DNA of 24,578 bases from the IMG/VR virus record IMGVR_UViG_3300031513_000007, positions 1-24,578 of that record; one strand, given 5' to 3'. The notes under the pieces were generated by a model. That model saw only the letters and a program-made list of their open reading frames with translations. It ran no database searches and was not told where the DNA came from. The position numbers were made by a program, and so were the translations under genes. The stretch comes from a virus. Below, one piece after another: positions 1,568 through 23,299 of this stretch. Position 1 is the first letter of the stretch; every line of letters begins with the position of its first letter.

Positions 1568-2649
1568 CCAGCGTCACCAACGACAAGACGAAGGCCGCGG
1601 CGCTGGCCGATGCGCTCAAGCGTCTGCGTGCTTCGTACAATGAGCACTACGCGGAGCTGCAAGAGTACTTCTTGCCGCGCCGTGGCTCGTTCTTTGGTCA
1701 AGACCGGATCGACAACGGTAGCAAGGTAAACGATCGGATCATCAACAGCACCGGCACGATCGCGCTGCGTACGCTGCAGTCCGGGATGCATGCCGGCATT
1801 TCGAGCCCGGCACGCCCGTGGTTCCGACTGGTTCCTGCTTCAGAAGAGCTTCGTAACGCGCATGACGTGAAAGAGTATTTGGACATGGTCCAGCGCATCA
1901 TGCGGCAGGTATTTCAGTCGGCCGGTATCTACAACTCGCTGCATGTCAGTTATGGCGATTTGGCGCTTTACGGTACCGACTGTGCTATCCTGGAAGAAGT
2001 CGTCAACGAGCACTCGCCTGCCGGCGGTATCGTGTTGCGTCAGTTGGAACCCGGTACGTTTTGGCTTGCTGCCGATGCGGAAAACCGAGTTACGGTGTGC
2101 TACCACGAAGTAGCGTTGACCGTCGAACAAGTTGTCGGCCAGTTCGTTTATAATGGCGATCCGTCGGCTTCTCCGAACTGGGATGTCGTCTCTACTACCA
2201 TCCGCAATCTGTGGACGAAGGGCGCGCGTTACGAGCCTGTGGTCGTGTCTCGGCTCATTGCGCCGAGGTATCGTGGGGACGTGGTGCTCGGCTCGACGCC
2301 CGACCGTATGCCGGTCGCGTCGTTGTGGTGGGAAGCGGGCGGGCCCAGCGACAAGTTTTTGCGGATCGGTGGCTATCGCCGGAACCCGATCATCGCCAGT
2401 CGTTGGTATGTCTCGGGTAACGAGATTTACGGGCGGTCGCCGGCGATGGATTGTCTACCCGACGTCAAAATGCTGCAGGTCATGGAGCGCGACAGGGCCG
2501 AGGCCGTCAAGCGCATGCTGCGGCCGCCGCTCAATGCGCCGACTGCGTTGCGCAACACGCGGTTTTCGACTTTGCCGGGTGCGATCAATTTCGTCGATAT
2601 CGATCGCGGTCTTACTCCGATTTATGAAATCAATCCGATTTGTTCTTGA
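1564..2649 (+). CDS. Portal (head-tail connector) protein, N-terminal part of a split gene
   Basis: The first 361 residues of a portal protein of the podoviral head-tail connector family, which forms the twelve-subunit ring for DNA entry and tail attachment. Typical features are the N-terminal helix with YFLPRRG, the stretch SGMHAGISSPARPWFRL near residues 74-90, the YGDLALYGTD segment near 130-140, and KMLQVMERDRAEAVKRMLRPPL near 300-320. Reading is normal up to YEINP, then ICS and a stop at 2647-2649. The rest of the portal continues in the -1 frame from about 2637 (DLFLMISLSDRR). Together the two parts would give about 555 residues, near normal length, but the join seems to lack part of a helix. 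The gene starts by ATGA overlap without a strong ribosome site, so it is probably translationally coupled to the gene before. The split is either a real mutation, an assembly or sequencing fault, or two subunits. Confidence 0.85.
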   Translation: MTSVTNDKTKAAALADALKRLRASYNEHYAELQEYFLPRRGSFFGQDRIDNGSKVNDRIINSTGTIALRTLQSGMHAGISSPARPWFRLVPASEELRNAHDVKEYLDMVQRIMRQVFQSAGIYNSLHVSYGDLALYGTDCAILEEVVNEHSPAGGIVLRQLEPGTFWLAADAENRVTVCYHEVALTVEQVVGQFVYNGDPSASPNWDVVSTTIRNLWTKGARYEPVVVSRLIAPRYRGDVVLGSTPDRMPVASLWWEAGGPSDKFLRIGGYRRNPIIASRWYVSGNEIYGRSPAMDCLPDVKMLQVMERDRAEAVKRMLRPPLNAPTALRNTRFSTLPGAINFVDIDRGLTPIYEINPICS

Positions 2650-3230
2650 TGATTTCGCTCTCGGATCGGCGACAGATCACGGCGCGCGAGATCGAAGAGC
2701 GGCACGAAGAGAAGTTGATCGGGCTCGGCCCGGTGCTGGAACTTCAGCACAAAGAGAAGTTGCGTCCGTTGATCTTCGGCGCGCTCACTTTGCTGTTGGA
2801 GCAGGGGCGTATACCGCCTCCGCCTTCTGCTTTGCGGGATCAGCCGCTTCTGATAGACTACATCTCGCTGTTGGCCCAGGCACAAAAGGTCATTTCGACC
2901 GGGTCTCTGGAACGCTTTTCGGCGTTCGTCGGTTCGATTGCAGCTGTAGTGCCGGAAGTGGTCGACGCGCTCGACGTTGACGCCGCTGCGCGCGAGTACG
3001 CCGACTTGATCGGCGCGCCAGCGACGGTGTTGCGCGACGAAGACGAGGTGGCGGCTATTCGACAGGCGCGAGCGGCGGCGATGCAGCGTCAGATGCAAAT
3101 CGAGCAAGCGGCGAAAGCCGCGCCGGCCGTCACCGCGGTCGCCGAAGGAGCGCGCGTTCTAGCCGAAAGCGGCGGGCTGGGGCGCGACAACGTCACGGAG
3201 TTACTACGCCGCGTGGGAGCGCTGCCATGA
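2649..3230 (+). CDS. Portal protein, C-terminal part of a split gene
   Basis: Carries the C-terminal third of the same portal. It shows the strongly conserved SDRRQITAREIEERHEEK, then LGPVLE, RPLIF, a proline run (IPPPPSAL), YISLLAQAQK, EYADLIGAP and an Ala/Gln-rich coiled tail. I chose the ATG at 2649, which shares one base with the stop of the N-terminal part (TGATG) and gives 193 residues. A TTG at 2640 would add three. No good ribosome site precedes either start, so the fragment could only be made by coupled re-initiation or as a fusion after a -1 shift. Upstream in this frame a TGA at 2625-2627 limits any shift to the 22 bases between 2628 and 2649. The stop overlaps the next gene as ATGA. 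The high conservation suggests the break is recent or artificial. Confidence 0.8.
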   Translation: MISLSDRRQITAREIEERHEEKLIGLGPVLELQHKEKLRPLIFGALTLLLEQGRIPPPPSALRDQPLLIDYISLLAQAQKVISTGSLERFSAFVGSIAAVVPEVVDALDVDAAAREYADLIGAPATVLRDEDEVAAIRQARAAAMQRQMQIEQAAKAAPAVTAVAEGARVLAESGGLGRDNVTELLRRVGALP

Positions 3231-9666: not shown

Positions 9667-12497
9667 CCCGCCAGCGCTACGTCGAACAAGTTTTCAGTCG
9701 TCCTTCGCCGCAAGAAGACTTGCGCGTGCAAGTGTCGCCGACCGCGTTCGGCGCACAGGCTGGGCAGGCATTCTTCGGTGTCGGACAAGCACTCGGCGAG
9801 GTCGCCGACGTTACGGCCCAGATCGAAGCACTCACCAACGAGACGTTGGCGCGAGAAGCGGCGATCAAGTTCAGCAAGGCCGCAGCGGAAGTGTTGCACG
9901 GCCAGGATGGCTACTTGCAGCTGACCGGTACGGCTGCGTTGGGCCGGCGTGGTGACTACCAGCGGCGCATCGATGAGCTTCGCGGTCGCTTGGCGCAGGA
10001 TCTGCCAGCTGGCGCGCGACGCGTGTACGATCGCCTGACGGAACCGCGCGCGCTCGCGTATTACGAGCATCTGGTACGCCATGAAGCCGATCAGCTGAAA
10101 GTTGCGACGAACGCCAACCTGTCCGCGGCGGTGGCCAACTCGGTAGAAGATGCCGTACGCGCGCGGGCCGACCCGGCCTTGTTCCAGTGGCACCTCGACG
10201 AAGCCTTGCAGTCGCTCGACAGGTTCGCCGAATTGAACGGTCTACCGCCCGAAGAGCGCGACTTGAAGCGTCGCGAGTTGGTGTCCAGTGCATACTTGCA
10301 GGCGATCATGGCCACTGCCGATGAACCGGGCGGGGCGCCGGCTGCGGCGACTTTGGCACGGCGCGCGGCTGATAAGTTGACTGTCGCCGACCGGCAGAAG
10401 ATGGAGCGGGTGCTGGGGCCGACTTTGCGGCGTGGCGAGGCTGCGGCGTTCTTGGAGCGTTTCGCTCGCTCGCCGTCCGTTGCTTATTATTCGGGCGGTT
10501 CGCGTGACGGTTACGCCGATGCCGTCGCGCGTCTTCTCGGCGAGCCGTTTACTTTGCCGCCTGGTTCACCGGCGATTGCCCGTGCGGTCTACGATGAGTT
10601 CGTGCGGTTGGGGCTCCCGCACGCCGTGGCTCGCGCACTGACGGCCGAGGCGTACCGCGAGAACCAGCTGAACCCGACTTACATGTTCGGTGACCACATC
10701 GATGCAAAGAACATGGCGACCAACACCGGGCTGTTTTCGTGGCAGGGCGACCGTCGCGAGCGGCTTTTGGCGTGGTTGCGCGAACGCGGACATATTGACG
10801 AGCGCGGCCGTATCAGGCCGACGCGCGATGCTCTGCGCGCGCAGGTCGAGTTTGCCGTTACCGAATTGCTCAGTCGGCCTGACGCCGATGCGTTCATGAA
10901 ACGTTTGAGCGAAGCGAAGACGGATGACGAGTTGGCCGAGTTGCTCGGCCGTGAATACATCAAGTGGGCCGTAGACGACCCGCAGTATCGCGAGCGCGGC
11001 CTGCGTGCCGTTCGTATCGGCCGTGAGCTTGTCGACATGGCCAACGACCCGGCTTTGCTCGGCGTCGACCCGACGCCCGAGAACCGTTTCTTGATCGAAC
11101 GGTTCGGCGCGTCCGAGGGAGCGGCTATGGTCACTGCCGAGCCGGGTACTCCCGTCGAGAGTGTTTTGGGCGAGGCCGAGGCCGCACGGCGCGGGCTGAC
11201 CGGGTTGACGGTCGGCTACGTGCGCCGTCGCGTGGCGGAGCTGTTCGGAGCGCCGTCGGCGCCGGTATCGAGCGGCAGGCCTTTCGACTACGCTGCGGCT
11301 GCGCGCGCCGTCGACAAAATCGAGGATCCCGAGCTCCGCCGGTTGGCGTGGGACGAGTTGGTCGCCCGCTACAAGCGTGATACGTTCGTTCGCGAGTTGG
11401 AGCGGCAAGACATGCTCGACAGCATCTGGCAACAGTTGGTTGCCGGTAAAGAAGTGAAGCTGACCGCCGCACAGCAGCTGCAATTGGGCGCCGATGGAGT
11501 TGCTGCGGTCGAGAAATTGATCGAAAAGATGCGCGAGGGGCCATCTGTTTCCGACATGCGCGTTTACACGCAACTTCACACGATGGCGCTCGAAGAGCCG
11601 GAGAAGTTCTTGCAAGTCGATTTGTTCGAGCATCTTTCCGCGGGGTCGTTGTCCAATCGAGACTATCGCGAGCTGCATGCACTGCAACTTCAACTACGAG
11701 CGAGCAAGGAAGCGCATCAACGTGAGCTGGAAGCCAATATCAAGGCTGTGGCTGCGCTGAAGCGTGTGCATGCGTTTGCGACGCAATCACTCGGGTTCGA
11801 TCCGCTCGGTACGGACAAAGATGACAAGAAGCACTTCGAGAACGCGCGCTTGTTCCAGATCGAATTCGCCAAGTTGCTTCGTGCCGAGACTTTGCGGCAA
11901 CAGCGTGAGCTGACAGAGGACGAGTTGATGCAATTGGTACAGCGATTGACTGCACCGGTGCGGACGCTGAGCGGCGAGTGGCCGGCGTATCGCGCAGAGT
12001 ACAAGCGCCGTCCTGGCGAGATCGTCGAGTTGGTGCCTCTCACGGCCGAACAACTGGGCGCGTCGGTGATCGAAGCTACGAAAGCGGCGTTGATGCATAT
12101 CGAACCCGACCCGTCGGTGAAAAAGGATGACTTCATGTCGCACGAGGCGGCCGTGCGCCATGCGAACAACCTCCGGCGTGTGCGAGAGTGGTTGGAGCGT
12201 AACCCGTCGCCTACGAAGGAGGACGCATTCGCGTTCGCGTTGGCGCTCGATATCGATCCGAGTATCGATCTGCCTGCAGGGTTGTTTACTGAGGTGCCGC
12301 CAACATCTTTGGTTCAGAAAGTCTTTAACGCAATCAAAAGTGCGGTTTCGTCTAATTCTGATGATAAGCCAAAGTATGTTTACATCGATGAGGGGGGTCA
12401 AAATGTAAAGCTGACAATCCAAGAAGGTATCGAACGTATCAAACGATACTGGATGCTGTTCTACATGAGCGTGCTGCAAGGAGGCCGAGTATGGTAG
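9663..12497 (+). CDS. Large internal virion protein with a lysozyme-like domain
   Basis: A 944-residue, mainly helical protein in the place of T7 gp15. It likely belongs to the inner core and is ejected with the DNA. Residues about 315-375 resemble the phage tail lysozyme fold: LTAEAYRENQLNP, with a likely catalytic Glu333, then GD at 343-344 and NTGLFSWQGDRRERLLAWL at 354-372. This pattern, Glu, a glycine-aspartate loop and a GLFxWxGDR stretch, matches lysozyme-like domains that open peptidoglycan. The remainder is Ala/Arg/Glu-rich helix with coiled parts near residues 640-760. The last 65 residues are coded by AT-rich DNA (47 of 120 bases are G or C at 12301-12420), unlike the rest. The start is by ATGA overlap. 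The stop overlaps the next start. The enzymatic role is inferred from motif spacing. Confidence 0.85.
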   Translation: MTRQRYVEQVFSRPSPQEDLRVQVSPTAFGAQAGQAFFGVGQALGEVADVTAQIEALTNETLAREAAIKFSKAAAEVLHGQDGYLQLTGTAALGRRGDYQRRIDELRGRLAQDLPAGARRVYDRLTEPRALAYYEHLVRHEADQLKVATNANLSAAVANSVEDAVRARADPALFQWHLDEALQSLDRFAELNGLPPEERDLKRRELVSSAYLQAIMATADEPGGAPAAATLARRAADKLTVADRQKMERVLGPTLRRGEAAAFLERFARSPSVAYYSGGSRDGYADAVARLLGEPFTLPPGSPAIARAVYDEFVRLGLPHAVARALTAEAYRENQLNPTYMFGDHIDAKNMATNTGLFSWQGDRRERLLAWLRERGHIDERGRIRPTRDALRAQVEFAVTELLSRPDADAFMKRLSEAKTDDELAELLGREYIKWAVDDPQYRERGLRAVRIGRELVDMANDPALLGVDPTPENRFLIERFGASEGAAMVTAEPGTPVESVLGEAEAARRGLTGLTVGYVRRRVAELFGAPSAPVSSGRPFDYAAAARAVDKIEDPELRRLAWDELVARYKRDTFVRELERQDMLDSIWQQLVAGKEVKLTAAQQLQLGADGVAAVEKLIEKMREGPSVSDMRVYTQLHTMALEEPEKFLQVDLFEHLSAGSLSNRDYRELHALQLQLRASKEAHQRELEANIKAVAALKRVHAFATQSLGFDPLGTDKDDKKHFENARLFQIEFAKLLRAETLRQQRELTEDELMQLVQRLTAPVRTLSGEWPAYRAEYKRRPGEIVELVPLTAEQLGASVIEATKAALMHIEPDPSVKKDDFMSHEAAVRHANNLRRVREWLERNPSPTKEDAFAFALALDIDPSIDLPAGLFTEVPPTSLVQKVFNAIKSAVSSNSDDKPKYVYIDEGGQNVKLTIQEGIERIKRYWMLFYMSVLQGGRVW
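10620..10778 (+). other. Lysozyme-like domain inside the 944-residue core protein
   Basis: Codes roughly residues 320-372. The pattern RENQLNP, then GD, then TGLFSWQGDRRERLLAWL resembles the ES-G-x-NP and GLxQWxGDR signatures of phage tail lysozymes. Glu333 is the candidate catalytic residue. Confidence 0.6.
12478..12484 (+). promoter_or_regulatory. Ribosome binding site of the giant gene
   Basis: A perfect AAGGAGG, six bases before the ATG at 12491, sits inside the end of the preceding gene. It fixes the start of the 3602-residue protein. Confidence 0.75.
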
Positions 12498-15400
12498 ATT
12501 TACTCCAACGACTGAAGGACCCGTCCGTCGACCTCTTCGAGGTTTTGCGGACGTTGGAAAAACAGCAAGCGGCCGAGGCCGAGCTCGCCGGCCGCCGTGC
12601 TGCGGCCGCTTCTGCGGTTGCGCTACCGACCCGGTTCGTCTCCGGCCTGCAGGTGGTCGATGAGTATGCCATGGCGACAGGTAACCCGCCTCCGTCCGTA
12701 CCGGTGACCCCCGAGGGCGTCGAGGCGCTGCGGTCGGCGATCGATGCTTTCCGATTGGCGGCGGCTGTCGAGCAAGCGCCAGCTACCGCACGGCTACTGG
12801 CTGCCGCGGAGCATGCGGCGTGGCTGCGACAGGACGCTGAACGCTTGGCGGCCTACGAGCGCATCATGCGCGATCCGACCGCCTGGGACAAAGCCGAAGC
12901 GTTGGTGAAGGGTGTGGGCGAGGGTTTCGTCGGCGTGTTCGGTTCTACCGCGAAAGGTATGGCCGAGGCCCGTGCGCTCGGCGGGCGGGCGCAGCTGGCT
13001 GCGGTGCGGCAAGTGCTCGACGAAACCGTTCAGGCGCTCGAAAGCGGTACACCACGCGAAGAAGTGATCAAGCAGCTGCGGCGCCCCCGTCTGTTGATGT
13101 TGACGGATCCGGTTGCACTTGAGGTTTACGGGGAGACGGTTGCCAGGGTCGAGCGCGGCGAGCCGCTCGGCGATCTGTTCGAGCGGTTGCAGAAGGCAGC
13201 CGCTGACGAAACCCGCGTTTCGGAGCAATGGCTGTACCGGATCGGCGACACGTTACAGCGTGAAGCCGCACGGGTGTTCGCTCCGCCGCCTGGTACGGAG
13301 GCCAGTGTCTGGCGCGATCTGGGCGCAGCGTTCGGTTCGTTCGGGGCGTTCGCTACTACCGGGTTGCTTACGCGCGGGTTCTTCGGCCGTACCGGCGGCC
13401 AGCTGTCGATGTACGGTGTCGCAACTGCGACCGGCATCGACGAAGCTTATCAGCGCGCGCTGGCCGCTGGGCTGTCGCCGAACGAGGCGCTCGACAAGGC
13501 GCTACAAGGCGCGCCAGCTGGGTTCATCCAGGCGCTGTCTGTCGAATTCGCATTGCGGCGGCTGTTGCCGCCGCCTGCCAGCCGCCGCGTATTGCAGCTC
13601 GCGGCCGATATCGCTGCTACAGCCGGAGGCGAAGCCATAGTCGAGACGCTCGGGGCGATCATGCAGAACATGGTCGAACGCACCTACAACCCCGAGCGAG
13701 ACCTGTTCGAGGGCACGCTTTACCAGGGCTTGGTCGCCGGCTCGGCGGCTGCATTGTTCCGGTCGCTATTCTACGCTGTCATCCCTGGCGCTCGGCGGTC
13801 GTTGTACCGCGACATAGAACGAGCCGAGGTGTCTGCCGACATGCAGCGTACGATGGAGTTGCTGAGCGCTGGGGTGTCAGGCGAAGAGCTACGCAAGAAA
13901 GCGCCTCCCCGGTTCCGCGCCTGGGCGGAGGCCGCCGCGACCGGCACGCCGGCCGAGATGGTCTACGTGTCGCCCGAGGGAGTGACGGCGCTCGCGCAGA
14001 CCGCGGGCGGTATCTCGCGCGCCATGGAGTTGCTGGCCGCGGTCGACCCGTCACTCACGGCCGAGGCGGTCCGCGAGGCGTTGGCCGAGGGCCGCGACAT
14101 CTCCATACCAATGGCCGCGTGGCTTTCCAGCGTGGTGGGCTCGGGGCTCGATACTGCCTTGATGCCGTACATTCGGCTCAACCAAGAACAGATGACCGCT
14201 GCCGAGCGCGCCCGGCTGACGCCGGAGCTCGAAGCCGAGCTGGCGGACATCCAGGCCCGCGCGGCGGCCGAAGCGCGCGGCGAGGCTGTCGAGCGCCCCG
14301 TCACTCCGGCCGAACGGCTGCGGGCCGAGGTCTACGAGACCGTGCGGCAACAGCTCGTAGGTGCTGGCCAGACGGAGAGCGTGGCGGCCGCCACGGCAGC
14401 GCAGTACGCGGCGGCCTACGGCCGGCTGGCCGAGCGCTCGACGTTGTCGCCAGAGGAATTCCTGCGCCGCTTCCCACCGGTGGCCGTGCGCGCCGAAGCG
14501 GGAGGGACGGCTGTAGGTATGCCCGAGACCGTAGCCGAGGCAATGGCCGAAATGGTGCGCCATGCACGGAGCGGCGCGCCGCTGTCTCCCGTCGGCCGTA
14601 AATTGGTCGAGTTGATCCGGCGGCTCGGCGGCGATCCGCGGACGATCTCGCTCGATGAGCTCCGCGATTTGTTGGCGTCCGCTGCCACGCGGGGCGTGGT
14701 GGCGCGCGGCGCGGCTCCCGGTTCGGTTGAGGCCGGGCGCGAGCTGACGGCCGAGGACCTCGAACGGATGCCGGTCGATGCTCTGGTAGAGGCTCTCGCA
14801 ACCACACCGGAAGGGCCGTCGGAAGCGGCGGCGCCCGTGGATGTCGAACGCGGTCCCTTGCCGCAAGACGGTGCCTTGGCCCAAGCCGCCGAGGTCGCTG
14901 GCGAATTCACTACGCTGCCGGATCGCCCGCAGCTGCCGGTTCGAGTGCGCGACGGCTTGGCGCCGCTGTATCATTGGAGCCACCTGCGGCTCAAGGTCAT
15001 CGACCCGGCGCGAGCTGGCACTGGCCCGCTGCGCGGCGCGGAGCGTTTCCGCGGAGGACCGTCCAAGAGCTTCTTCGGATTGAATGTCGATGATCCGCGC
15101 ATCGGCTATCGGCCGGAGCGCGGGCTCGGCCCATACATGCACGTGGTAGCAGTCGACCCGCGTAAGTTGTATCCGTGGTACGAGGACCCTGACAGCATCA
15201 AGGCTTCGAAGTTGTACCCGTGGCGCGATGAAATCGCAGCCACGAAGCAGCGGCCGCCTGTGACGACAGAAGAGCTGGTTGCGAAGTACGAGGAGTTGAT
15301 CAAGGAGGCAGGCTATCTCGGCTACTACATCACCAATGACGGCCAAGGTTCCGCGCCGCTCGGTACCGTTGCTGCGTTGTTCTATCCCGTGCCTGTCGAG

Positions 15401-18400
15401 GGTGCCGGTGATGTAGACACCGGGCAGGTGCTGTACCAATCGACGGGCGACAAGTGGTACTACTCGGCGCTGGCGCGTGCTGTTGTGGCTATGAGGCAAG
15501 CGGTGGCGCCGGCGAGCCAGTGGAAGGGCGCGATCAAGAACCTGCCGGGTGTCAAGGCCGATGAACTGAAGTGGACCGGTATACTCGAATATTTGGACGC
15601 TCGCGGTAAGGACAAGGTCACCAAGGCCGAGTTGTTGGATTATTTGGAAACCAACGGGTTGCAAGTTAAAGCGTTGATCCGGACGGAGCCTTCTTACGCT
15701 TTGGACCCAGCGGAATTGTCCGATGCCGAGGTTGTCGAACGGAGAGTGCCTCCGCAATACGAGCAATACACAGTACCTGTTAAAAATTATACCGAATACG
15801 GCGAAGTTTTGATCGTGTCGCCCGAGTTGGCGAACACCGGGCTCAACGTGTTCCTTCCGCGAGCTTCTGTAGAGCATATCAAGACGCACTTCGGGGACGT
15901 CAATCCGTTGAGCCATTTGCGCTATACGGTGCGTACGGCGCCGGACGAAGAGCGCGTGTTTTTCATCGAGGAAGTGCAATCCGACTTCGGGACGCAGCTG
16001 GCTGAAGCCGCGAAATTCGATCCGGCGGCCGCTATCGTCGGTCCGGGGGCCGCGGCGGCTGCTACCGAGATACGTTTGTCGGCAGTAGCGAGCCAACCAA
16101 CCGCTGAGCCGCCACATCAAGTTCTGTATCCGAAGGTAACGAAGCGCGCCAAAACCGTTGTCAATTTGATCAAGCAGCTTATCGGCTGGGAGCTGCCTTG
16201 GGAGATAAGAGACGAACTCAAAAAGTTGGCGTTTTCTGACTTCGATGAGTATTACTTCGCTTACTGGATGGACTGGCTGAAGACACAGCCAAAGGCCGAC
16301 CAATTCATCGATCGTCTGTGGCGAGCCTTTGTCGTACTCGGTGCCGACCCCGGGGCGGCCGGAGCTCCTGTAAGGCTGTTCGCGAACGTACTCACGTCTT
16401 CGACCGGGCGACTTGCGAACAAGGCAAGGTTCGATGCCGTTTTGAGTGAATATTATTCGAGCAGTGACGAGCAGAAAGCCAGGCTCGAACAAAATCATAA
16501 AGCGCTGTACGATGCATTGGACAGTTATTTGAAAGCTGCGGATGCTTATGCAAAAGCAATTCCGCTAGCGGAACTGTTCAAGTCTTGGGATGATGTAGTG
16601 TACGGTATCGGCCGCGATTTGGACGACCACTACAACAGGCTACAGCAACAGGTCGATCTAGCTGACAAGCTCGACTTGGTGTTTCAGGATGAGCAAAAGG
16701 CCGCGCTTCTCGCGCACGCCGTTCGCGAGGTGATGCAGGCCGATGCGCAATACGCAGCTGCAATCGACCGGTTCGTGTCGACGTTCGCCAAGTTGCCGAT
16801 CAGGTTGCAAAAAGAGCTTAAAGAGAAGAAGCTGGATCCGGAGAATTTGTTGCAAATTTTGCGCTCCGACGAACTGATGCGTCGTGTTACAGATGCTGAA
16901 AACCTTTTCGTGAACCAAATGCCGGCGCTTGCAAGCACGGTCAAGAAAACGCGTGCGCGTCTCGCATCCAGTTATCGCTGGCTGATAGCTGCCGACGAAG
17001 TGTTTGTCGAGCTCATGGCCGCCAGATCTGCCGATTTCGGAAACCCGGAAACAACTGCTATCGGAGAAGGGCCGACTACCCGTGATTTCCCCGAGTTGGC
17101 AACGGCGATCGTCAACAAGGACACTCCGTTCTTCAAGACACGTGACGTCTACATCGCGCGACTTTCGCGTGCATTCAACGTACCTGTCGAAGCGTTGGCC
17201 CGCGCTGCGACGGCGCACGGTGATTTGAAGCCGGAGAATTCAGCCTACGAGCGTGCTTCCAAGGTGGCGGCTGCGGTCGTCGACGCGTTCCACATGCTGG
17301 ACGCCGAACTGCCGTCGGTAGCCAGTTTACTGGCTTCCGCGCCGACGTGGCTGTATGCTGGCGTAGCCTCGCCTGCCGATTTGCTCGAATGGGCTCGGCT
17401 ACCCGAGGCCGACGCCGAACAACGGATCGCTACGGCTGCGGGCGGGTACGCTGTGGTAGCCGACGAACTACGCGATCGCGTGGCTGCGATACGCGCTCAG
17501 CTGCCCGATGCGTCGGCCAGCGGCACAACCGCCGTGGCCGACTACATCGCTGCCGTGCGCGCGGCCGAACAACTCGTGACAGCGAGCCCGACCAGTAGCG
17601 TCGAAAGTGACGTCGCATCAGGGTTGATGCGAAACGTCCCTGTGTCGCCGCTGGATCGCTCCGGACTGCAGCTGCTTGCCGTCAAGTGGGCGCTTCACCA
17701 TGCGATCAGGCAGGGTTACGACTGGCTCGCTTGGACGCCGGCTTACGTCCAGGAACAGCGCTGGGACATGGCTGTACAGAACATCATCCGACGCGTTTGG
17801 TGGGGCGCGCCGACGCCGGCAACCAGCGCCGAGCTGGCCACCGAACTACAGGCGGCGCGCGAAAAACTCCGACAGCGCGCGCTCAAGAAAGCGCTGAAAG
17901 AGATTTTCGACATCGATGAAGTCAACGAGCACGTACATTTGAAGTTGGCTGAGTACTTACCGGCCGGCTTGCTTTATGCATACTTCAATGGGAACAAAGA
18001 AGCGGCCGGGCGCGCTGCGTTGGCCGTCATAAAGTATTACATCAACCGCATCATCGATGACGGCGAACGTTCTGTATTTTACTCCGCTGTTGGCACGCTA
18101 CCTGAGCACATAGGTTACCGCGTTGTCGTGACTTCGCTTCATGCTTCTGCGGTCGATTTGCTTGTTGAAGAAGTGCCGCTGAATTTTGCGCAGGAACTGG
18201 AACATCACTACTGGCGCACAGAGCTGCGACGCATAAACAACATGGTTGGTCGAAACACAACTATTTGGTACGACGAATATGACTTGAAAGATGCATACGC
18301 CGATTTGTTGGACGAGCATCTGGCTCGCGCAATCGGCGCGCACCGCATCGTGCATCTGGATATCGGTGCGCAAGATCGATCTACCGGCCGCACCATCACG

Positions 18401-21400
18401 CTTCTTGTCGACCGCAACGGCATCGTGACCGGGCTCGGCGCCTCGGAACCGCCTACCGACGCGCAGAATACGGTGCAACAGCTGTTGGGCACGCGGCTGA
18501 GTGCGACTATCGGCGACGCGCTCACGGCGCGGGTTCTCGACGAAGAAAAAGGTGAGGCGAACGCAACCGACGTGAAGTTCGGGGCGAGCGGGTACGAGAC
18601 CGTCTACGACAGGCTGATCAAGAAGTTCGTTGACGACTTCGCGAAGAAGTACGGTGCACGCGTAGAGAAGATCGAAGACCTATTTACGCCTGAAGAGAAA
18701 TCGCGAACCGAAGACACCACGCTGTTCATGCAGCTGCCGCCGGTCGAACGCGTACGATTGGTGCGTGAGGATTTCTCGGATTATCTTCGTTTTGCGGGTG
18801 GGCGCCTCTCGGAGCGTGTCGAGCAGTTCATAAGCAAAGTTTACGACGCAATAATTGCCGGCGGCGACACACTTGCAGCCGATGACTGGACGCAACAAGT
18901 TGCCAGCTGGCTAAGCGTTGAGCTTGCTGACCTCGTCGTAACCGACGACTACGTGTTGTCATTGGAAGACGCTGAGGTAAGCGGCGACAGGGCACAAACC
19001 GCCGACGCGCTACAGCTGCAAGAGCTGAAAGAGCGAGCGCTGGATGACTTCGGGTTTGCAGCACGCAATGCCGACATCAAAAGGCTGAGCCGCGCCGCAG
19101 GGCGGGTGTACGCAAAAGCCGACAAAGGCGTGCAAGCCTTGATCAGGAACGCTGTTGCAGACGTGCTAGGTAGTAGCGACGAAATCAGCGCTGTATTCGG
19201 GCGCGGCGTGCGCAGTATTCGCGAAGATAACGCGCTTGTATTCAGCTCAGTTGTCACCGCTCTAGACGAGTTGCGACGTGAGGCCGAAGAGCAAGACACC
19301 GACGCTGAAAACGACTTCGTGCCAGATTGGGTTTGGGGCGTCCGGATCACGCCAGAGATGCGCGAGGCGGCGCGCAAGGGCTTCCCGTTATTCCAGCCCG
19401 GGATGCAGCGCAAGATCCGCGGCCAGATCGTACTGCCACCGCGGCAAGGCGAGCGCGCCGTCATCACGCTGTTCTCGCAGGCGAACCTGTCGACACTGCT
19501 TCACGAGATGGGGCACCATTATCTCTGGATCATGGAACAACTCGTCAAGTCCGGCGAGGCGAAACCGGATCTGGCTACCGACTGGCAGACGATCGGGCAG
19601 TGGTGGGCCGACAACGCCGACACGGTGGCCGAAGATGCGAGCCGCATCGGCCCGGCGGTCACGGCGGACGACGTGCGGACGTATCTCGTCACCGGGTCGA
19701 CCGGACGCGGCGATGCCGACCGGGCGATTTGGACAGCGCTACAAGAGCTGTGGGCGCGCGGCACCGAGGCTTACCTCCGCGAAGGTCGCGCGCCGTCGAA
19801 CGCACTGCGGCGGGCGTTCCACGCGTTCCGGGCGTGGCTCATGGCGATCTACCGCTCGCTCGATGAGCTGCGCGTGCGTATCAGCCCCGAGATCCGCACC
19901 GTGTTCGATCGGCTGTTCGCAACCGAGGCCGAGCTCGAAGAGGCCCGCGGCCGCGAGAACCTCGGCCGGCTGTCGGAGAAACTGGCGGAACAACTGGGCC
20001 TGCCGCCGGAGAAATGGCGTCGCCTGAAAGAGTTGGAGGACGAAGCACTCCGTGAGCAAGAGACCGTCGCAGTCTACGAAGTGCTGTCCGAGATACACAC
20101 CGAAGTGGACGAACAGCGGCGTGAGCGCGAAGAAGCATTGCGTAAAGCAGCGCTGGCCGAGTTGCGTCAGCGCCCCGAGTATCGTGCGCTGGCCATTCTC
20201 GGTGATCTGCGCGACCCGAGCGACCCGAACGCCCCCGCGGCCGTACCACCCGAGCAACGGCTCGACCGCCGCGAGCTCATCGAGCGCTACGGTCCCGACG
20301 TGCTACGGGCACTGCCACGTGGGCGGCGAGCCATCTACACGGCCGAAGGCGTGCAAGGCATGCCGCTCGATGCGGCCGCCGAGATGCTCGGCTTCCGCTC
20401 GGGTGACGAACTGGTACAGACGCTGCTTCGCACGCCGCCACTCTTCCGCGCCGTCGAAGCGCGCGTCGCCGACCAACTGACCGCCAGCACGCCGCCGGAT
20501 CCGGTGCTTCAGCCCGAGATGGAGGAGGCGGCCAAGCGTGCCTTGCACGGTGAAGCGACGGGTCGACTACTCGCGGCCGAAGTGGCGGCAATCGCCGAGG
20601 CGGCGCAAATCAAAGAGCCGCCACTCACGCGGCAGATGGCGCGCGAGATCGTGCGCCGGCGCTTCGAAGACATGCGCGTGGTCGATGCCGAGCGGGCGGC
20701 CTTGTACTTGGCGGCCGAACGCCGCGCGGCGCGCGAGGCCTTCGATGCACTGGAAGCCGGCAAGCTGGCCGAAGCCTACGAAGCCAAGCGTAAGCAATTG
20801 ATCAACTTCGCGGCCTACGCCGAAGCGGTCAAGATAAAGGACACGACCCGCAAGTTGGAGCGCCTGGCCCGCCGGCTACAGAAGAAGTCGACCCGCGAGA
20901 AGCTGGCGCCCGAGTACTTGGCTGCGATCGATGAGCTGCTCGACAAGTACGAGTTCCGCAAGACCAGTCGATCGCAACTCGACGCCATGGCGGCGCTGCA
21001 AGCTTTGATCGAACGTATGCGCGCCGAAGGCCGAGAGAACGAACTCATCATCGCGCCGGAAGTGGCCGCGCGGCTCGAAAAGATCCACTACCGGCAGATC
21101 ACGGTAGCCGAGATGCGCGGGCTTTACGACGCGTTGCGTAACCTGGATCACGTGGCGCGATGGGCGCAACGCATCCGGATCGGCGAAGAGACCCGCCAAT
21201 TCGACGAAGTGGTCGATGAGATCTTGGCAGCGTTCGACGCCAACGTGCCCATCGAGCCGCGTGAGCGTGTGCCGCGGCCGAAGCCGCTGGCCGGGCTGCG
21301 CTCGTACTTCAACTTGGTGCGCACGGCCAGCACCATCCTGCGGCGTATCGACGGACAAGCGACGCTCGGCCCGGCCTACAAGTACTTCAAGGCAGCGGTA

Positions 21401-23299
21401 GACGCCGGCGCCCGACGCGAGACGATCATGCGGCGCGAGCTCGGCGAGAAGCTCGACAAGCTCTACAGCGTCTACAGTCGAGCCGAGATGCGCGAGATGA
21501 GCCGCCGTATGATGCGCAAGGGCTGGCACGAACCGTTGTCCAAGTGGGATCTTATCGCGATCGCGCTCAATCTCGGCAACGCCGACAACATCCAGCGTTT
21601 GACGGACCCGAAGGCGCGCGGTTTCACGATGGACCAAATCCAACAGCTCATGGCCGAGCTGGACGACCGCGACTGGGACTTCGTCCAAGGCATGTGGGAT
21701 CTCATCGACAGCTACTGGGGGGCGATCGCCGAACGCGAGCGCCGCGTCACCGGCGTGCCGCCGAAGAAAGTCGAACCCACACCTTACACGACACCCTCGG
21801 GACGCGTGCTGCGCGGCGGCTATTATCCGATCGTCTACGACGGCGAGCTGTCGGCGCAGGTTACCGACGAACGCGACGCCGAGATCATGATGAACATGCT
21901 ACCCGGGCAGTTCGGGCGGGCGCAAACCGCGCGGGGCCACCTCATCGAGCGCAAAGCAGGCAGCGGCGGACGCGTCCTCCTACTCGATGTGGCCGTGGCC
22001 CACCGGCACCTCGGGCGCGTGATACACGACCTGGCGCTCGGCGAGGCCGTAGCGGCCACGTGGCGGCTCTTGCGCAACCCGCGCATCCGCGCCGCGTTCC
22101 AGGCACGCGGTATGCTCGACGAACTGGCCACACTCGAACTGTGGATCCAGGACGTGGCAGTCGGGCAGATCCACGCAGCCGACATGTTGAGCCGCCTGGC
22201 AGCACAAGCCAAAGCGAACTTCACGCTGGCGTCGCTCGGCTTCAACATGCTGACGCTCATCATGCAGCCCACGGGGTTGGTGCAATCGTCTGTTGCACTC
22301 GGCCACAAAGTCTTCTTGCGTGGCTTGTGGTCGTACCTCAAGCGCCCACACAGTGCCGTGCGCGAGGTCGTCTCCAAATCGTCGTTGATGCAGACGCGGC
22401 AGACGACGTTCAACAAAGACATCAACGACATCCTCGACAGCATCAACCGCGGCGCCATCGAGAGCGGCTACTCGCGGATCATGCGCAAGTACATGGCGCC
22501 GGCTGCGTTCTTGGCGATGCAGAAGTTCCAGTTCTACACCGTCGACGTGCCGACCTGGATCGCTGCTTACGGGCAGGCACTGCGTGAGGGGCTCGACGAA
22601 CGCGATGCCGTCGCCGCAGCCGACGCGGCCGTCGTGCGCGCGCAGGCGGGCGGCGAATGGTCGGATCGTACGGCGTTCGAGCGCGGGACGTTGAGCCGGA
22701 CTACGCGGCAGTCGGCCGTAGTGCGGCTGTTCACGGCGCTGGCCAGCTACATGATCGCCAAGTTGAACGTCGGCGAAGAGCGTGTGCGCCGCGGCGTGCA
22801 AGAGATGCGCACGGCTGGTTTCGGCCCGAGGGCGCTCGGAGCAGCGTTCGCCCTGGCAACAGACCTCATCATTCTGTTCGCCCTCGAAGCTGTGCTGATA
22901 TCTCTGGCACTCGGCCGCCTGCCCGGGCTGCAAGAGGACGACGATGACGACGATGATCGGTACTTGAAGCTACTGCAATTCGTCGTCAAAGAAGGCTTGC
23001 TCGCGGCCGCCGCTGGGTTACCGGTCGTGCGCGATCTCGCTGGCCCGCTGCAGGGCTTCTCGCCGGGTGGCGCCTACGGATCGATTGTCGACGTGCTGAC
23101 GCAACCAGTGGTCCGCGTGCTCCGCGACATCGAGCAAGAAGAGCTCCATCGCGGAACGGTCACAGCCATCGTGCGCGCCATCGGGCTCGCCACCGGGTTG
23201 CCGACCACGCAGACCAACCGGCTCATAAGCGCCGCATGGCGCACTTCGGAAGGTGAAGACGTGAGCCCGTCCGAGTGGATATTCGGCGCTCGACGCTGA
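12491..23299 (+). CDS. Giant polyvalent internal virion protein with metallopeptidase
   Basis: A 3602-residue protein in the T7 gp16 position, likely loaded in the head core and ejected into the host. Order: helical N-terminus with two hydrophobic Gly/Ala-rich segments near residues 277-300 and 413-432; a conserved domain with LYHWS (826-830), possibly ADP-ribosyltransferase-like; a large polyvalent-protein-associated module from LYQ (980) to FPLFQ (2298-2302), with EEVQSDFG at 1160-1167 and WLAWTP at 1745-1750; a zinc metallopeptidase with HEMGH at 2338-2342; long charged helices to about 2900; and a conserved C-terminal domain with GGYYPIVYD near 3110, a membrane helix near 3456-3476 and seven aspartates at 3483-3489. 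The large module is about three times the usual size and its DNA is poorer in GC. No frameshift is seen. Start ATG after AAGGAGG. Targets are unknown. Confidence 0.88.
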   Translation: MVDLLQRLKDPSVDLFEVLRTLEKQQAAEAELAGRRAAAASAVALPTRFVSGLQVVDEYAMATGNPPPSVPVTPEGVEALRSAIDAFRLAAAVEQAPATARLLAAAEHAAWLRQDAERLAAYERIMRDPTAWDKAEALVKGVGEGFVGVFGSTAKGMAEARALGGRAQLAAVRQVLDETVQALESGTPREEVIKQLRRPRLLMLTDPVALEVYGETVARVERGEPLGDLFERLQKAAADETRVSEQWLYRIGDTLQREAARVFAPPPGTEASVWRDLGAAFGSFGAFATTGLLTRGFFGRTGGQLSMYGVATATGIDEAYQRALAAGLSPNEALDKALQGAPAGFIQALSVEFALRRLLPPPASRRVLQLAADIAATAGGEAIVETLGAIMQNMVERTYNPERDLFEGTLYQGLVAGSAAALFRSLFYAVIPGARRSLYRDIERAEVSADMQRTMELLSAGVSGEELRKKAPPRFRAWAEAAATGTPAEMVYVSPEGVTALAQTAGGISRAMELLAAVDPSLTAEAVREALAEGRDISIPMAAWLSSVVGSGLDTALMPYIRLNQEQMTAAERARLTPELEAELADIQARAAAEARGEAVERPVTPAERLRAEVYETVRQQLVGAGQTESVAAATAAQYAAAYGRLAERSTLSPEEFLRRFPPVAVRAEAGGTAVGMPETVAEAMAEMVRHARSGAPLSPVGRKLVELIRRLGGDPRTISLDELRDLLASAATRGVVARGAAPGSVEAGRELTAEDLERMPVDALVEALATTPEGPSEAAAPVDVERGPLPQDGALAQAAEVAGEFTTLPDRPQLPVRVRDGLAPLYHWSHLRLKVIDPARAGTGPLRGAERFRGGPSKSFFGLNVDDPRIGYRPERGLGPYMHVVAVDPRKLYPWYEDPDSIKASKLYPWRDEIAATKQRPPVTTEELVAKYEELIKEAGYLGYYITNDGQGSAPLGTVAALFYPVPVEGAGDVDTGQVLYQSTGDKWYYSALARAVVAMRQAVAPASQWKGAIKNLPGVKADELKWTGILEYLDARGKDKVTKAELLDYLETNGLQVKALIRTEPSYALDPAELSDAEVVERRVPPQYEQYTVPVKNYTEYGEVLIVSPELANTGLNVFLPRASVEHIKTHFGDVNPLSHLRYTVRTAPDEERVFFIEEVQSDFGTQLAEAAKFDPAAAIVGPGAAAAATEIRLSAVASQPTAEPPHQVLYPKVTKRAKTVVNLIKQLIGWELPWEIRDELKKLAFSDFDEYYFAYWMDWLKTQPKADQFIDRLWRAFVVLGADPGAAGAPVRLFANVLTSSTGRLANKARFDAVLSEYYSSSDEQKARLEQNHKALYDALDSYLKAADAYAKAIPLAELFKSWDDVVYGIGRDLDDHYNRLQQQVDLADKLDLVFQDEQKAALLAHAVREVMQADAQYAAAIDRFVSTFAKLPIRLQKELKEKKLDPENLLQILRSDELMRRVTDAENLFVNQMPALASTVKKTRARLASSYRWLIAADEVFVELMAARSADFGNPETTAIGEGPTTRDFPELATAIVNKDTPFFKTRDVYIARLSRAFNVPVEALARAATAHGDLKPENSAYERASKVAAAVVDAFHMLDAELPSVASLLASAPTWLYAGVASPADLLEWARLPEADAEQRIATAAGGYAVVADELRDRVAAIRAQLPDASASGTTAVADYIAAVRAAEQLVTASPTSSVESDVASGLMRNVPVSPLDRSGLQLLAVKWALHHAIRQGYDWLAWTPAYVQEQRWDMAVQNIIRRVWWGAPTPATSAELATELQAAREKLRQRALKKALKEIFDIDEVNEHVHLKLAEYLPAGLLYAYFNGNKEAAGRAALAVIKYYINRIIDDGERSVFYSAVGTLPEHIGYRVVVTSLHASAVDLLVEEVPLNFAQELEHHYWRTELRRINNMVGRNTTIWYDEYDLKDAYADLLDEHLARAIGAHRIVHLDIGAQDRSTGRTITLLVDRNGIVTGLGASEPPTDAQNTVQQLLGTRLSATIGDALTARVLDEEKGEANATDVKFGASGYETVYDRLIKKFVDDFAKKYGARVEKIEDLFTPEEKSRTEDTTLFMQLPPVERVRLVREDFSDYLRFAGGRLSERVEQFISKVYDAIIAGGDTLAADDWTQQVASWLSVELADLVVTDDYVLSLEDAEVSGDRAQTADALQLQELKERALDDFGFAARNADIKRLSRAAGRVYAKADKGVQALIRNAVADVLGSSDEISAVFGRGVRSIREDNALVFSSVVTALDELRREAEEQDTDAENDFVPDWVWGVRITPEMREAARKGFPLFQPGMQRKIRGQIVLPPRQGERAVITLFSQANLSTLLHEMGHHYLWIMEQLVKSGEAKPDLATDWQTIGQWWADNADTVAEDASRIGPAVTADDVRTYLVTGSTGRGDADRAIWTALQELWARGTEAYLREGRAPSNALRRAFHAFRAWLMAIYRSLDELRVRISPEIRTVFDRLFATEAELEEARGRENLGRLSEKLAEQLGLPPEKWRRLKELEDEALREQETVAVYEVLSEIHTEVDEQRREREEALRKAALAELRQRPEYRALAILGDLRDPSDPNAPAAVPPEQRLDRRELIERYGPDVLRALPRGRRAIYTAEGVQGMPLDAAAEMLGFRSGDELVQTLLRTPPLFRAVEARVADQLTASTPPDPVLQPEMEEAAKRALHGEATGRLLAAEVAAIAEAAQIKEPPLTRQMAREIVRRRFEDMRVVDAERAALYLAAERRAAREAFDALEAGKLAEAYEAKRKQLINFAAYAEAVKIKDTTRKLERLARRLQKKSTREKLAPEYLAAIDELLDKYEFRKTSRSQLDAMAALQALIERMRAEGRENELIIAPEVAARLEKIHYRQITVAEMRGLYDALRNLDHVARWAQRIRIGEETRQFDEVVDEILAAFDANVPIEPRERVPRPKPLAGLRSYFNLVRTASTILRRIDGQATLGPAYKYFKAAVDAGARRETIMRRELGEKLDKLYSVYSRAEMREMSRRMMRKGWHEPLSKWDLIAIALNLGNADNIQRLTDPKARGFTMDQIQQLMAELDDRDWDFVQGMWDLIDSYWGAIAERERRVTGVPPKKVEPTPYTTPSGRVLRGGYYPIVYDGELSAQVTDERDAEIMMNMLPGQFGRAQTARGHLIERKAGSGGRVLLLDVAVAHRHLGRVIHDLALGEAVAATWRLLRNPRIRAAFQARGMLDELATLELWIQDVAVGQIHAADMLSRLAAQAKANFTLASLGFNMLTLIMQPTGLVQSSVALGHKVFLRGLWSYLKRPHSAVREVVSKSSLMQTRQTTFNKDINDILDSINRGAIESGYSRIMRKYMAPAAFLAMQKFQFYTVDVPTWIAAYGQALREGLDERDAVAAADAAVVRAQAGGEWSDRTAFERGTLSRTTRQSAVVRLFTALASYMIAKLNVGEERVRRGVQEMRTAGFGPRALGAAFALATDLIILFALEAVLISLALGRLPGLQEDDDDDDDRYLKLLQFVVKEGLLAAAAGLPVVRDLAGPLQGFSPGGAYGSIVDVLTQPVVRVLRDIEQEELHRGTVTAIVRAIGLATGLPTTQTNRLISAAWRTSEGEDVSPSEWIFGARR
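14942..15406 (+). other. Conserved 'LYHWS' domain in the giant protein (possibly ADP-ribosyltransferase-like)
   Basis: Residues about 818-972. LYHWSHLRLKVIDPARAGTG, FFGLN, a PE-rich loop, a YMHVVAVDPRKLY strand and GYLGYYITNDG match a domain often seen in giant phage proteins. The leading His and the Tyr-Gly segments recall ADP-ribosyltransferases, but I cannot identify a catalytic Glu with certainty. Confidence 0.5.
15428..19396 (+). other. Enlarged polyvalent-protein-associated module of the giant protein
   Basis: Residues 980-2302. Conserved landmarks in order are LYQSTGDKWYYSALARA, QWKGAIKNLPGVKADELKW, FFIEEVQSDFG, LLAVKWALHHAIRQGYDWLAWTP, FGASGYETVYDRLIKKF and VWGVRITPEMREAARKGFPLFQ. 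These are known from large phage and mobile-element polyvalent proteins, normally within about 500 residues. Here they are spread over about 1320 because of three insertions. Hand counts give 40-48 percent GC in several lines here against 70-80 percent in the flanks. Confidence 0.7.
19403..19960 (+). other. Zinc metallopeptidase domain of the giant protein
   Basis: Residues about 2305-2490. TLFSQANLSTLLHEMGHHYL holds the zinc-binding HEMGH, and ALQELWARGTEAYLREGRAPS supplies a likely third zinc ligand, Glu2419 or Glu2426. This is the MPTase-PolyVal pattern. The following FHAFRAWLMAIYRSL helix and PEIRTVFDRLFATEAELEEAR are usual for the family. Confidence 0.8.
21269..23296 (+). other. Conserved C-terminal domain of the giant protein
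   Basis: Residues about 2927-3602. ALNLGNADNIQRL, DDRDWDFVQGMWDLIDSYW, ERRVTGVPP and RGGYYPIVYD are common to the C-termini of giant podoviral core proteins. The end resembles the polyvalent-associated domain LPD38. It contains a predicted membrane helix (DLIILFALEAVLISLAL) followed by a run of seven aspartates. Confidence 0.6.

Follow-up and report, generated by a model that had tools for sequence, protein, structure and literature searches.

Polyvalent proteins (Iyer et al. 2017, PMC5512222) are giant, multi-domain proteins that are thought to be injected with the DNA and that carry ART, GNAT and zincin-like peptidase domains. In this report, we will focus on a protein that may belong with them, encoded by the IMG/VR virus record IMGVR_UViG_3300031513_000007. 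The whole record, 24,578 bases long, was analysed and will be called the window. One of its open reading frames (ORFs) encodes a giant tailed-phage protein of 3,602 residues, in which an HExxH motif is present, a GNAT-like fold is predicted and a segment resembles ART without matching any Pfam family. We will particularly examine the part of this protein in which two conserved segments, EEVQSD and AWTP, are held apart by a long insert. We will argue that both probably belong to a single GNAT-like domain, the loops of which have taken up helical inserts.

The closest described fold is that of the GNAT superfamily, whose loop between the strand beta4 and the helix alpha3 ordinarily binds the pyrophosphate of acetyl-coenzyme A (acetyl-CoA). 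The window protein matches the fold of about 117 residues found in TacT3, Naa50 and the C-terminal domain of ICL2 at Z 7.6-8.7, but it differs from these proteins by the lack of significant sequence similarity and of a recognisable Q/RxxGxG/A loop, and by some 950 inserted residues.

The nearest relative of the whole protein is encoded by the IMG/VR contig 3300043543_000230 (locus L013, hereafter the sister contig), with 81% identity over the 2,649 residues found on it. The nearest isolated relatives are those of the Nostoc phage Nsp-JY18 and the Microcystis phage Mel-JY33, each 50% identical in the C-terminal 1,300 residues, for which another IMG/VR contig, 3300045922_000161 (L012), reaches 47%. 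In the window, in both contigs and in the two cyanophages, the module lies between the N-terminal region and the HExxH region. Nsp-JY18, Mel-JY33 and L012 thus have the same protein with the module at the same place, but their loops (308, 308 and 142 residues) have no detectable similarity to the insert of the window. The EEVQSD motif was not found in Bordetella phage BPP-1 or in most other relatives of the giant protein. Both contigs were recovered by a profile scan of viral contigs; single-protein scans of viral contigs and a megablast of the ORF against phage genomes gave no matches.

The EEVQSD/AWT module and its spacing

The module is part of phrog_7348, and no Pfam or NCBIfam model was found for it. 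It is nevertheless very common, with relatives confirmed in at least 518 stretches of IMG/VR and in 91 stretches of GTDB genomes. The window module carries, in order, the motifs EEVQSD, AWT(P/T), GGxG..(F/V)YD and ITPxM..G.P(L/M)F that are seen in the modules elsewhere, together with the invariant H, R, EE, QSD, R, Y and T, and its EEVQSD, AWTP, G(A/G)xG, VYD and ITPEM all align with canonical modules. Judged on 51 of the latter, the invariant or near-invariant residues kept in the window are H1133, N1138, H1142, R1144, R1148, E1160, E1161, Q1163, S1164, D1165, P1720, K1732, R1757, Y2039 and T2287.

The spacing, counted between the first residues of EEVQSD and AWTP, sets the window apart. Its median is 119 residues over the 133 modules measured, 127 of which lie at 48-196 (a common property rather than a strict definition), and one more (L176) reaches about 240. 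In the window, EEVQSD starts at residue 1160 and AWTP at residue 1747, which gives 587 residues. Among the relatives of the whole protein, the values are 142 (L012), 308 (both cyanophages) and 590 (sister contig), so that the window and its sister are clear outliers, by far the longest among the relatives sampled. These modules came from genome and virus contigs, as the best 80 loci of each, more being present in the collections, and the survey is skewed towards normal spacing because the confirming query had a 190-residue gap. As spacing varies so widely among relatives, the beta4-alpha3 loop is a general insertion site, which readily takes insertions across the family, and the window lineage is an extreme case. 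Raw spacings of 635 (L023) and 926 (L148) were rejected as artefacts of the regular expression. L148 has two EEVQSD modules in one ORF, about 770 residues apart, and L108 likewise gave two modules.

An earlier note, made from the sequence of the window, had drawn attention to this insertion. It took 60-100 residues as the normal distance between FIEEVQSDFG (residues 1158-1167) and LLAVKWALHHAIRQGYDWLAWTP (residues 1728-1750), which is too narrow. Its coordinates for the separating residues (1176-1723, at nucleotides 16016-17659) are exact, and the window interval exceeds that of a typical module by about 470 residues, not 550. A normal spacing in close homologues was to speak against it: spacing does vary (48 to about 240 residues, and 308 in the cyanophages), but 587 is still abnormal. 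The GC counts that it gave for three 60-base blocks (24, 26 and 23) are also exact, and GC within the insert falls locally to 0.53-0.57, the window as a whole being at about 0.62. Equally GC-poor blocks are found outside the insert, at 2581, 12301, 12361, 17881 and 18241, and composition is therefore a weak signal.

Short forms of the module also occur outside giant proteins. Gammaproteobacterial genomes, among them those of Thiodiazotropha and Sedimenticola, encode it in separate ORFs of about 550-610 residues (L063, L068, L070, L072, L080, L090 and L091), as EEIQSDWHQ ... GLPLFG and without other polyvalent parts; these ORFs were possibly adopted by the host.

A probable GNAT-like fold split by three inserts

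Two AlphaFold2 models were compared with known structures. The canonical model, of module L039 with 51 sequences, has a predicted local distance difference test score (pLDDT) of 85 and the topology beta-beta-(loop)-alpha-beta-...-alpha-beta-beta. The window model covers residues 1100-2299, with a different lead sequence and with most of its alignment rows in common with the canonical model. In VIA-align, the best match of the canonical model is the GNAT-like C-terminal domain of Mycobacterium tuberculosis ICL2 (Z 7.4, 3.8 A, 118 aligned). Lower matches are Rv0802c and FeeM, which we take to be GNAT folds, two more acetyltransferases, and chimallin. The ICL2 domain is a GNAT-like, acetyl-CoA-binding domain, and the ICL2 and chimallin folds are as published (PMC6788997, PMC9365700). 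For the window model, the matches are TacT3 (Z 8.7, 3.3 A, 117 aligned), ICL2 (8.6) and human MAK3/Naa50 (7.6-7.8); GNAT-fold chains make up 13 of the 17 top rows and are aligned across model residues 1 to 1200. In this model, a fold of about 117 residues thus takes up 1,200, since three helical inserts lie in its loops (Table 1); the earlier note had overlooked the second and the third of them.

Table 1. Layout of the split module and other features of the giant protein; secondary-structure positions are those of the window model, and the GNAT strand and helix labels are our own assignment.
Feature	Nucleotides	Strand	Residues and remarks
Giant Bbp10-like protein, putative virion/ejection protein	12491..23299	+	3602 residues; phrog_9880 match; zero cysteine
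ART-like segment LYHWS...SFFGLN...VAALF	14906..15460	+	806-990
Predicted GNAT-like core, first part	15800..15991	+	strands 1104-1108, 1141-1149, 1155-1163 (beta4); H1142, R1144, R1148; EEVQSD 1160-1165
Insert 1, helical, beta4-alpha3 loop	15992..17647	+	1168-1719; 587 residues motif to motif
Fastest-diverging part of insert 1	16091..17140	+	1201-1550; against the sister contig
Compact helical piece in insert 1	17363..17530	+	1625-1680; pLDDT about 78-90
Predicted core resumes	17648..17770	+	P1720; alpha3 1724-1740; beta5 1745-1748 (AWTP); QEQRW 1754-1758
Insert 2, helical, after beta5	17816..18340	+	about 1776-1950
Hairpin strands, alpha4 and beta6	18344..18676	+	strands 1952-1982; GASGY..VYD 2031-2040; alpha4 2033-2052; beta6 2058-2062
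Insert 3, helical bundle between beta6 and beta7	18677..19327	+	2063-2279; parts at pLDDT 75-90
Module end	19328..19396	+	beta7 2280-2285 and ITPEMREAARKGFPLFQ (2286-2302)
HExxH motif of zincin-like metallopeptidase region, LHEMGHHYLWIME	19499..19537	+	2337-2349; compared with PMC5512222

The core of the GNAT fold (beta4-alpha3-beta5-alpha4-beta6-beta7) is found, in predicted models only. The Q/RxxGxG/A loop for the CoA pyrophosphate is not, and in the window insert 1 stands in its place. Since this loop is lost, we speak of a GNAT-like fold and not of a GNAT acetyltransferase: our claim concerns the fold, and any acyl-CoA binding or acyl transfer by the module is putative. The module has no Pfam GNAT match, a profile search of it against PDB sequences gave no matches, and what it matches in BFVD are further giant phage proteins, likewise unnamed. 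Weak Foldseek matches of the canonical module to enolase and actin-related structures were rejected for their poor TM-scores.

The inserts and their evolution

In the window model, insert 1 is all-helical (the earlier note had called it mainly helical), mostly at pLDDT 25-70 and with confidence only at about residues 1625-1680, and its helical periodicity has a z of 4.2. The note had also recognised no motif in it, and indeed no relatives were found in Pfam, PHROGs, PDB sequences or phage genomes. A tblastn against phage genomes at E up to 10 gave one chance match (E 8), and phmmer against PDB gave only the tetrabrachion coiled coil, also by chance (E 0.5). Insert-specific scans recovered only the sister contig and a canonical module (L021) from viral contigs and nothing from genome contigs, so that no stand-alone copy was found in IMG/VR or GTDB contigs. 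Neither among the three inserts nor between them and those of the Nostoc phage and L012 is there any similarity, and in the Nostoc and Microcystis phages 22 residues stand in place of the roughly 190 of insert 2.

The comparison with the sister contig, which is 68% identical across the EEVQSD-AWTP interval, shows where the protein changes fastest. For residues 1201-1550, the nonsynonymous rate (dN) is 0.29 and its ratio to the synonymous rate (dN/dS) is 0.40; residues 2061-2285, the region of insert 3, form a second fast-diverging region (dN/dS 0.34), against 0.06-0.13 in segments outside the module. Nonsynonymous and synonymous changes number 242 and 161 in insert 1 and 135 and 428 outside the module (odds ratio 4.8, P 9e-30, with changes treated as independent). 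Residues 1551-1750, which take in the C-terminal part of the insert, are better kept, at 76-88% identity in 50-residue bins against 32-74% in the rest of the insert.

What the split domain and its inserts may be

The explanation that we favour, with moderate confidence, is that the EEVQSD and AWTP segments are beta4 and alpha3-beta5 of one GNAT-like domain, split by helical inserts, in an effector delivered by the virion, with the inserts as recognition or packing surfaces. It builds on what was computed, namely the motif order, the invariant residues kept, the spacing statistics, the fold match, the helical inserts and their faster evolution. It is also supported by the virion cassette upstream of the giant ORF, whose genes include those for terminase, capsid, tail tubular, internal virion and lysozyme-like proteins. 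From the Bbp10-like homologues and the position of the gene, we infer that the giant protein would be packaged in the virion and enter the cell with the DNA. The GNAT-like domain may then modify or bind a target of the host or of the phage, while the loop inserts may act as fast-changing recognition or packing surfaces. They could also substitute for the lost CoA loop, or mark a domain in which CoA binding has been given up.

Several results weigh against this explanation. Overall confidence in the window model is low (pLDDT 58, predicted template modelling score 0.41), and Z values of 7-9 are within the range of models without a clear match. Foldseek of the canonical model against PDB gave no match at E <= 0.001, and the hhalign comparison of profiles, made with 19 GNATs, falls short of significance (probability 4%, P 0.01), though its register places EEIQSDWxQxGRxxG on the GNAT beta4 and CoA loop. 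Given these two results, the assignment rests on the agreement between matches, and we regard the EEVQSD/AWT module as probably GNAT-like from its models. The near-invariant WxQxGRxxG that follows EEVQSD, whose W, Q and both G after QSD are present in at least 96% of the 51 modules, is gone in the window (FGTQLAEAA), and is also missing from the cyanophage relatives and L012; MAFFT aligns the W and G of canonical modules to positions within the window insert, a stretch over which its alignment carries no meaning. After AWTP, a Trp replaces the near-invariant Tyr. Compared with canonical modules, the window thus lacks both of these features in addition to having the longer spacing and two extra inserts, and the losses make catalysis doubtful in its lineage. 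Finally, positive selection is not apparent, as dN/dS remains under 1, which indicates weaker constraint and does not demonstrate such selection.

Other explanations concern mainly the nature of the inserts. They may be helical spacers under relaxed constraint that make an ejection protein larger, either to pack it into the capsid core or for a transfer conduit. This is possible, if less probable as a full account: all three are helical, fast-evolving and variable in length (142, 308 and 587 residues for the motif-to-motif loop), and no conserved motif was found in them, but the frame is kept with dN/dS at about 0.3-0.4, so some constraint is left, and they sit in loops of one enzyme-like fold and not between domains. 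As to the role of the inserts alone, spacers and recognition surfaces are almost equally likely. The earlier note had suggested an undescribed domain, and an autonomous domain with its own function, lodged in a permissive loop, is rather unlikely. The compact piece at residues 1625-1680 reaches its pLDDT from two sequences only, the C-terminal part of the insert is the better kept one, and relatives are lacking in the four collections searched; most of the insert is, however, poorly predicted, the inserts of relatives at the same place share no sequence similarity with it, and no stand-alone copy came to light among IMG/VR or GTDB contigs. What stands of that suggestion is a segment that is unusually long, helical and unrecognised, and at most a candidate for one independent domain. 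A further reading, about as unlikely, is that the module is an uncatalogued GNAT-like family which many phages bring into cells, and that in the window lineage a helical domain of about 550 residues, evolving fast, took the place of its CoA-binding loop and gave it a new cofactor or target.

A long insertion beside a conserved motif could also recall an intein, a homing element or an intron. This is extremely improbable, and intein and intron were rejected: the frame is open throughout, the insert has no Pfam family match at E <= 1 that would indicate an intein or endonuclease, the window has no Rfam match, group I and II introns included, and the insert varies in length among relatives, with a shorter segment in the same loop of every sampled module. 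The metagenomic origin of the record and the lower GC of the insert could likewise suggest an assembly chimera, which the sister contig refutes: a second contig has the same layout, with 590 residues and 68% identity over the interval, so the insert is no assembly artefact.

The insert is therefore real and unusual in size, at a site that accepts insertions family-wide, and the window carries a variant of a common uncatalogued module. It illustrates to what extent insertions can break up such a fold with its core residues still in place, and it marks loops where giant phage proteins diversify. More broadly, the EEVQSD/AWT module is probably GNAT-like, which, if true, offers a testable function for a very common unnamed part of these proteins.

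The giant protein and its gene context

Residues 2308-3599 match phrog_9880 (E 8e-264), and the C-terminal part aligns over its full length with Bbp10 of BPP-1 and with comparable giant proteins from podovirus-like phages. This homology over 1,300 residues comes with a position after the lysozyme-like gene in the late structural cassette, which runs through terminase, connector, protease, major head protein, tail tubular, internal virion protein and lysozyme-like genes to the giant ORF. On the N-terminal side of the module, residues 806-1072 are about 49% identical to Nsp-JY18; residues 806-990 are putatively ART-like by their motif, and this segment has no Pfam match. Residues 59-131 (12665-12883) have a weak LPD22 match (E 0.002), which at 18.7 bits is below the cut-off of 28.6.

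The connector gene (phrog_332) consists of two overlapping frames, 1564-2649 and 2640-3230, where the sister contig has a single open frame of 625 residues, and the split is probably a frameshift in the window record. The giant protein has no cysteine in its 3,602 residues, and neither have 16 of 18 full or partial homologues of about 2,000-4,000 residues each, the other two having one. The adjoining lysozyme-like protein of 944 residues is also devoid of cysteine, and this absence is possibly linked to transit through the tail or the periplasm.
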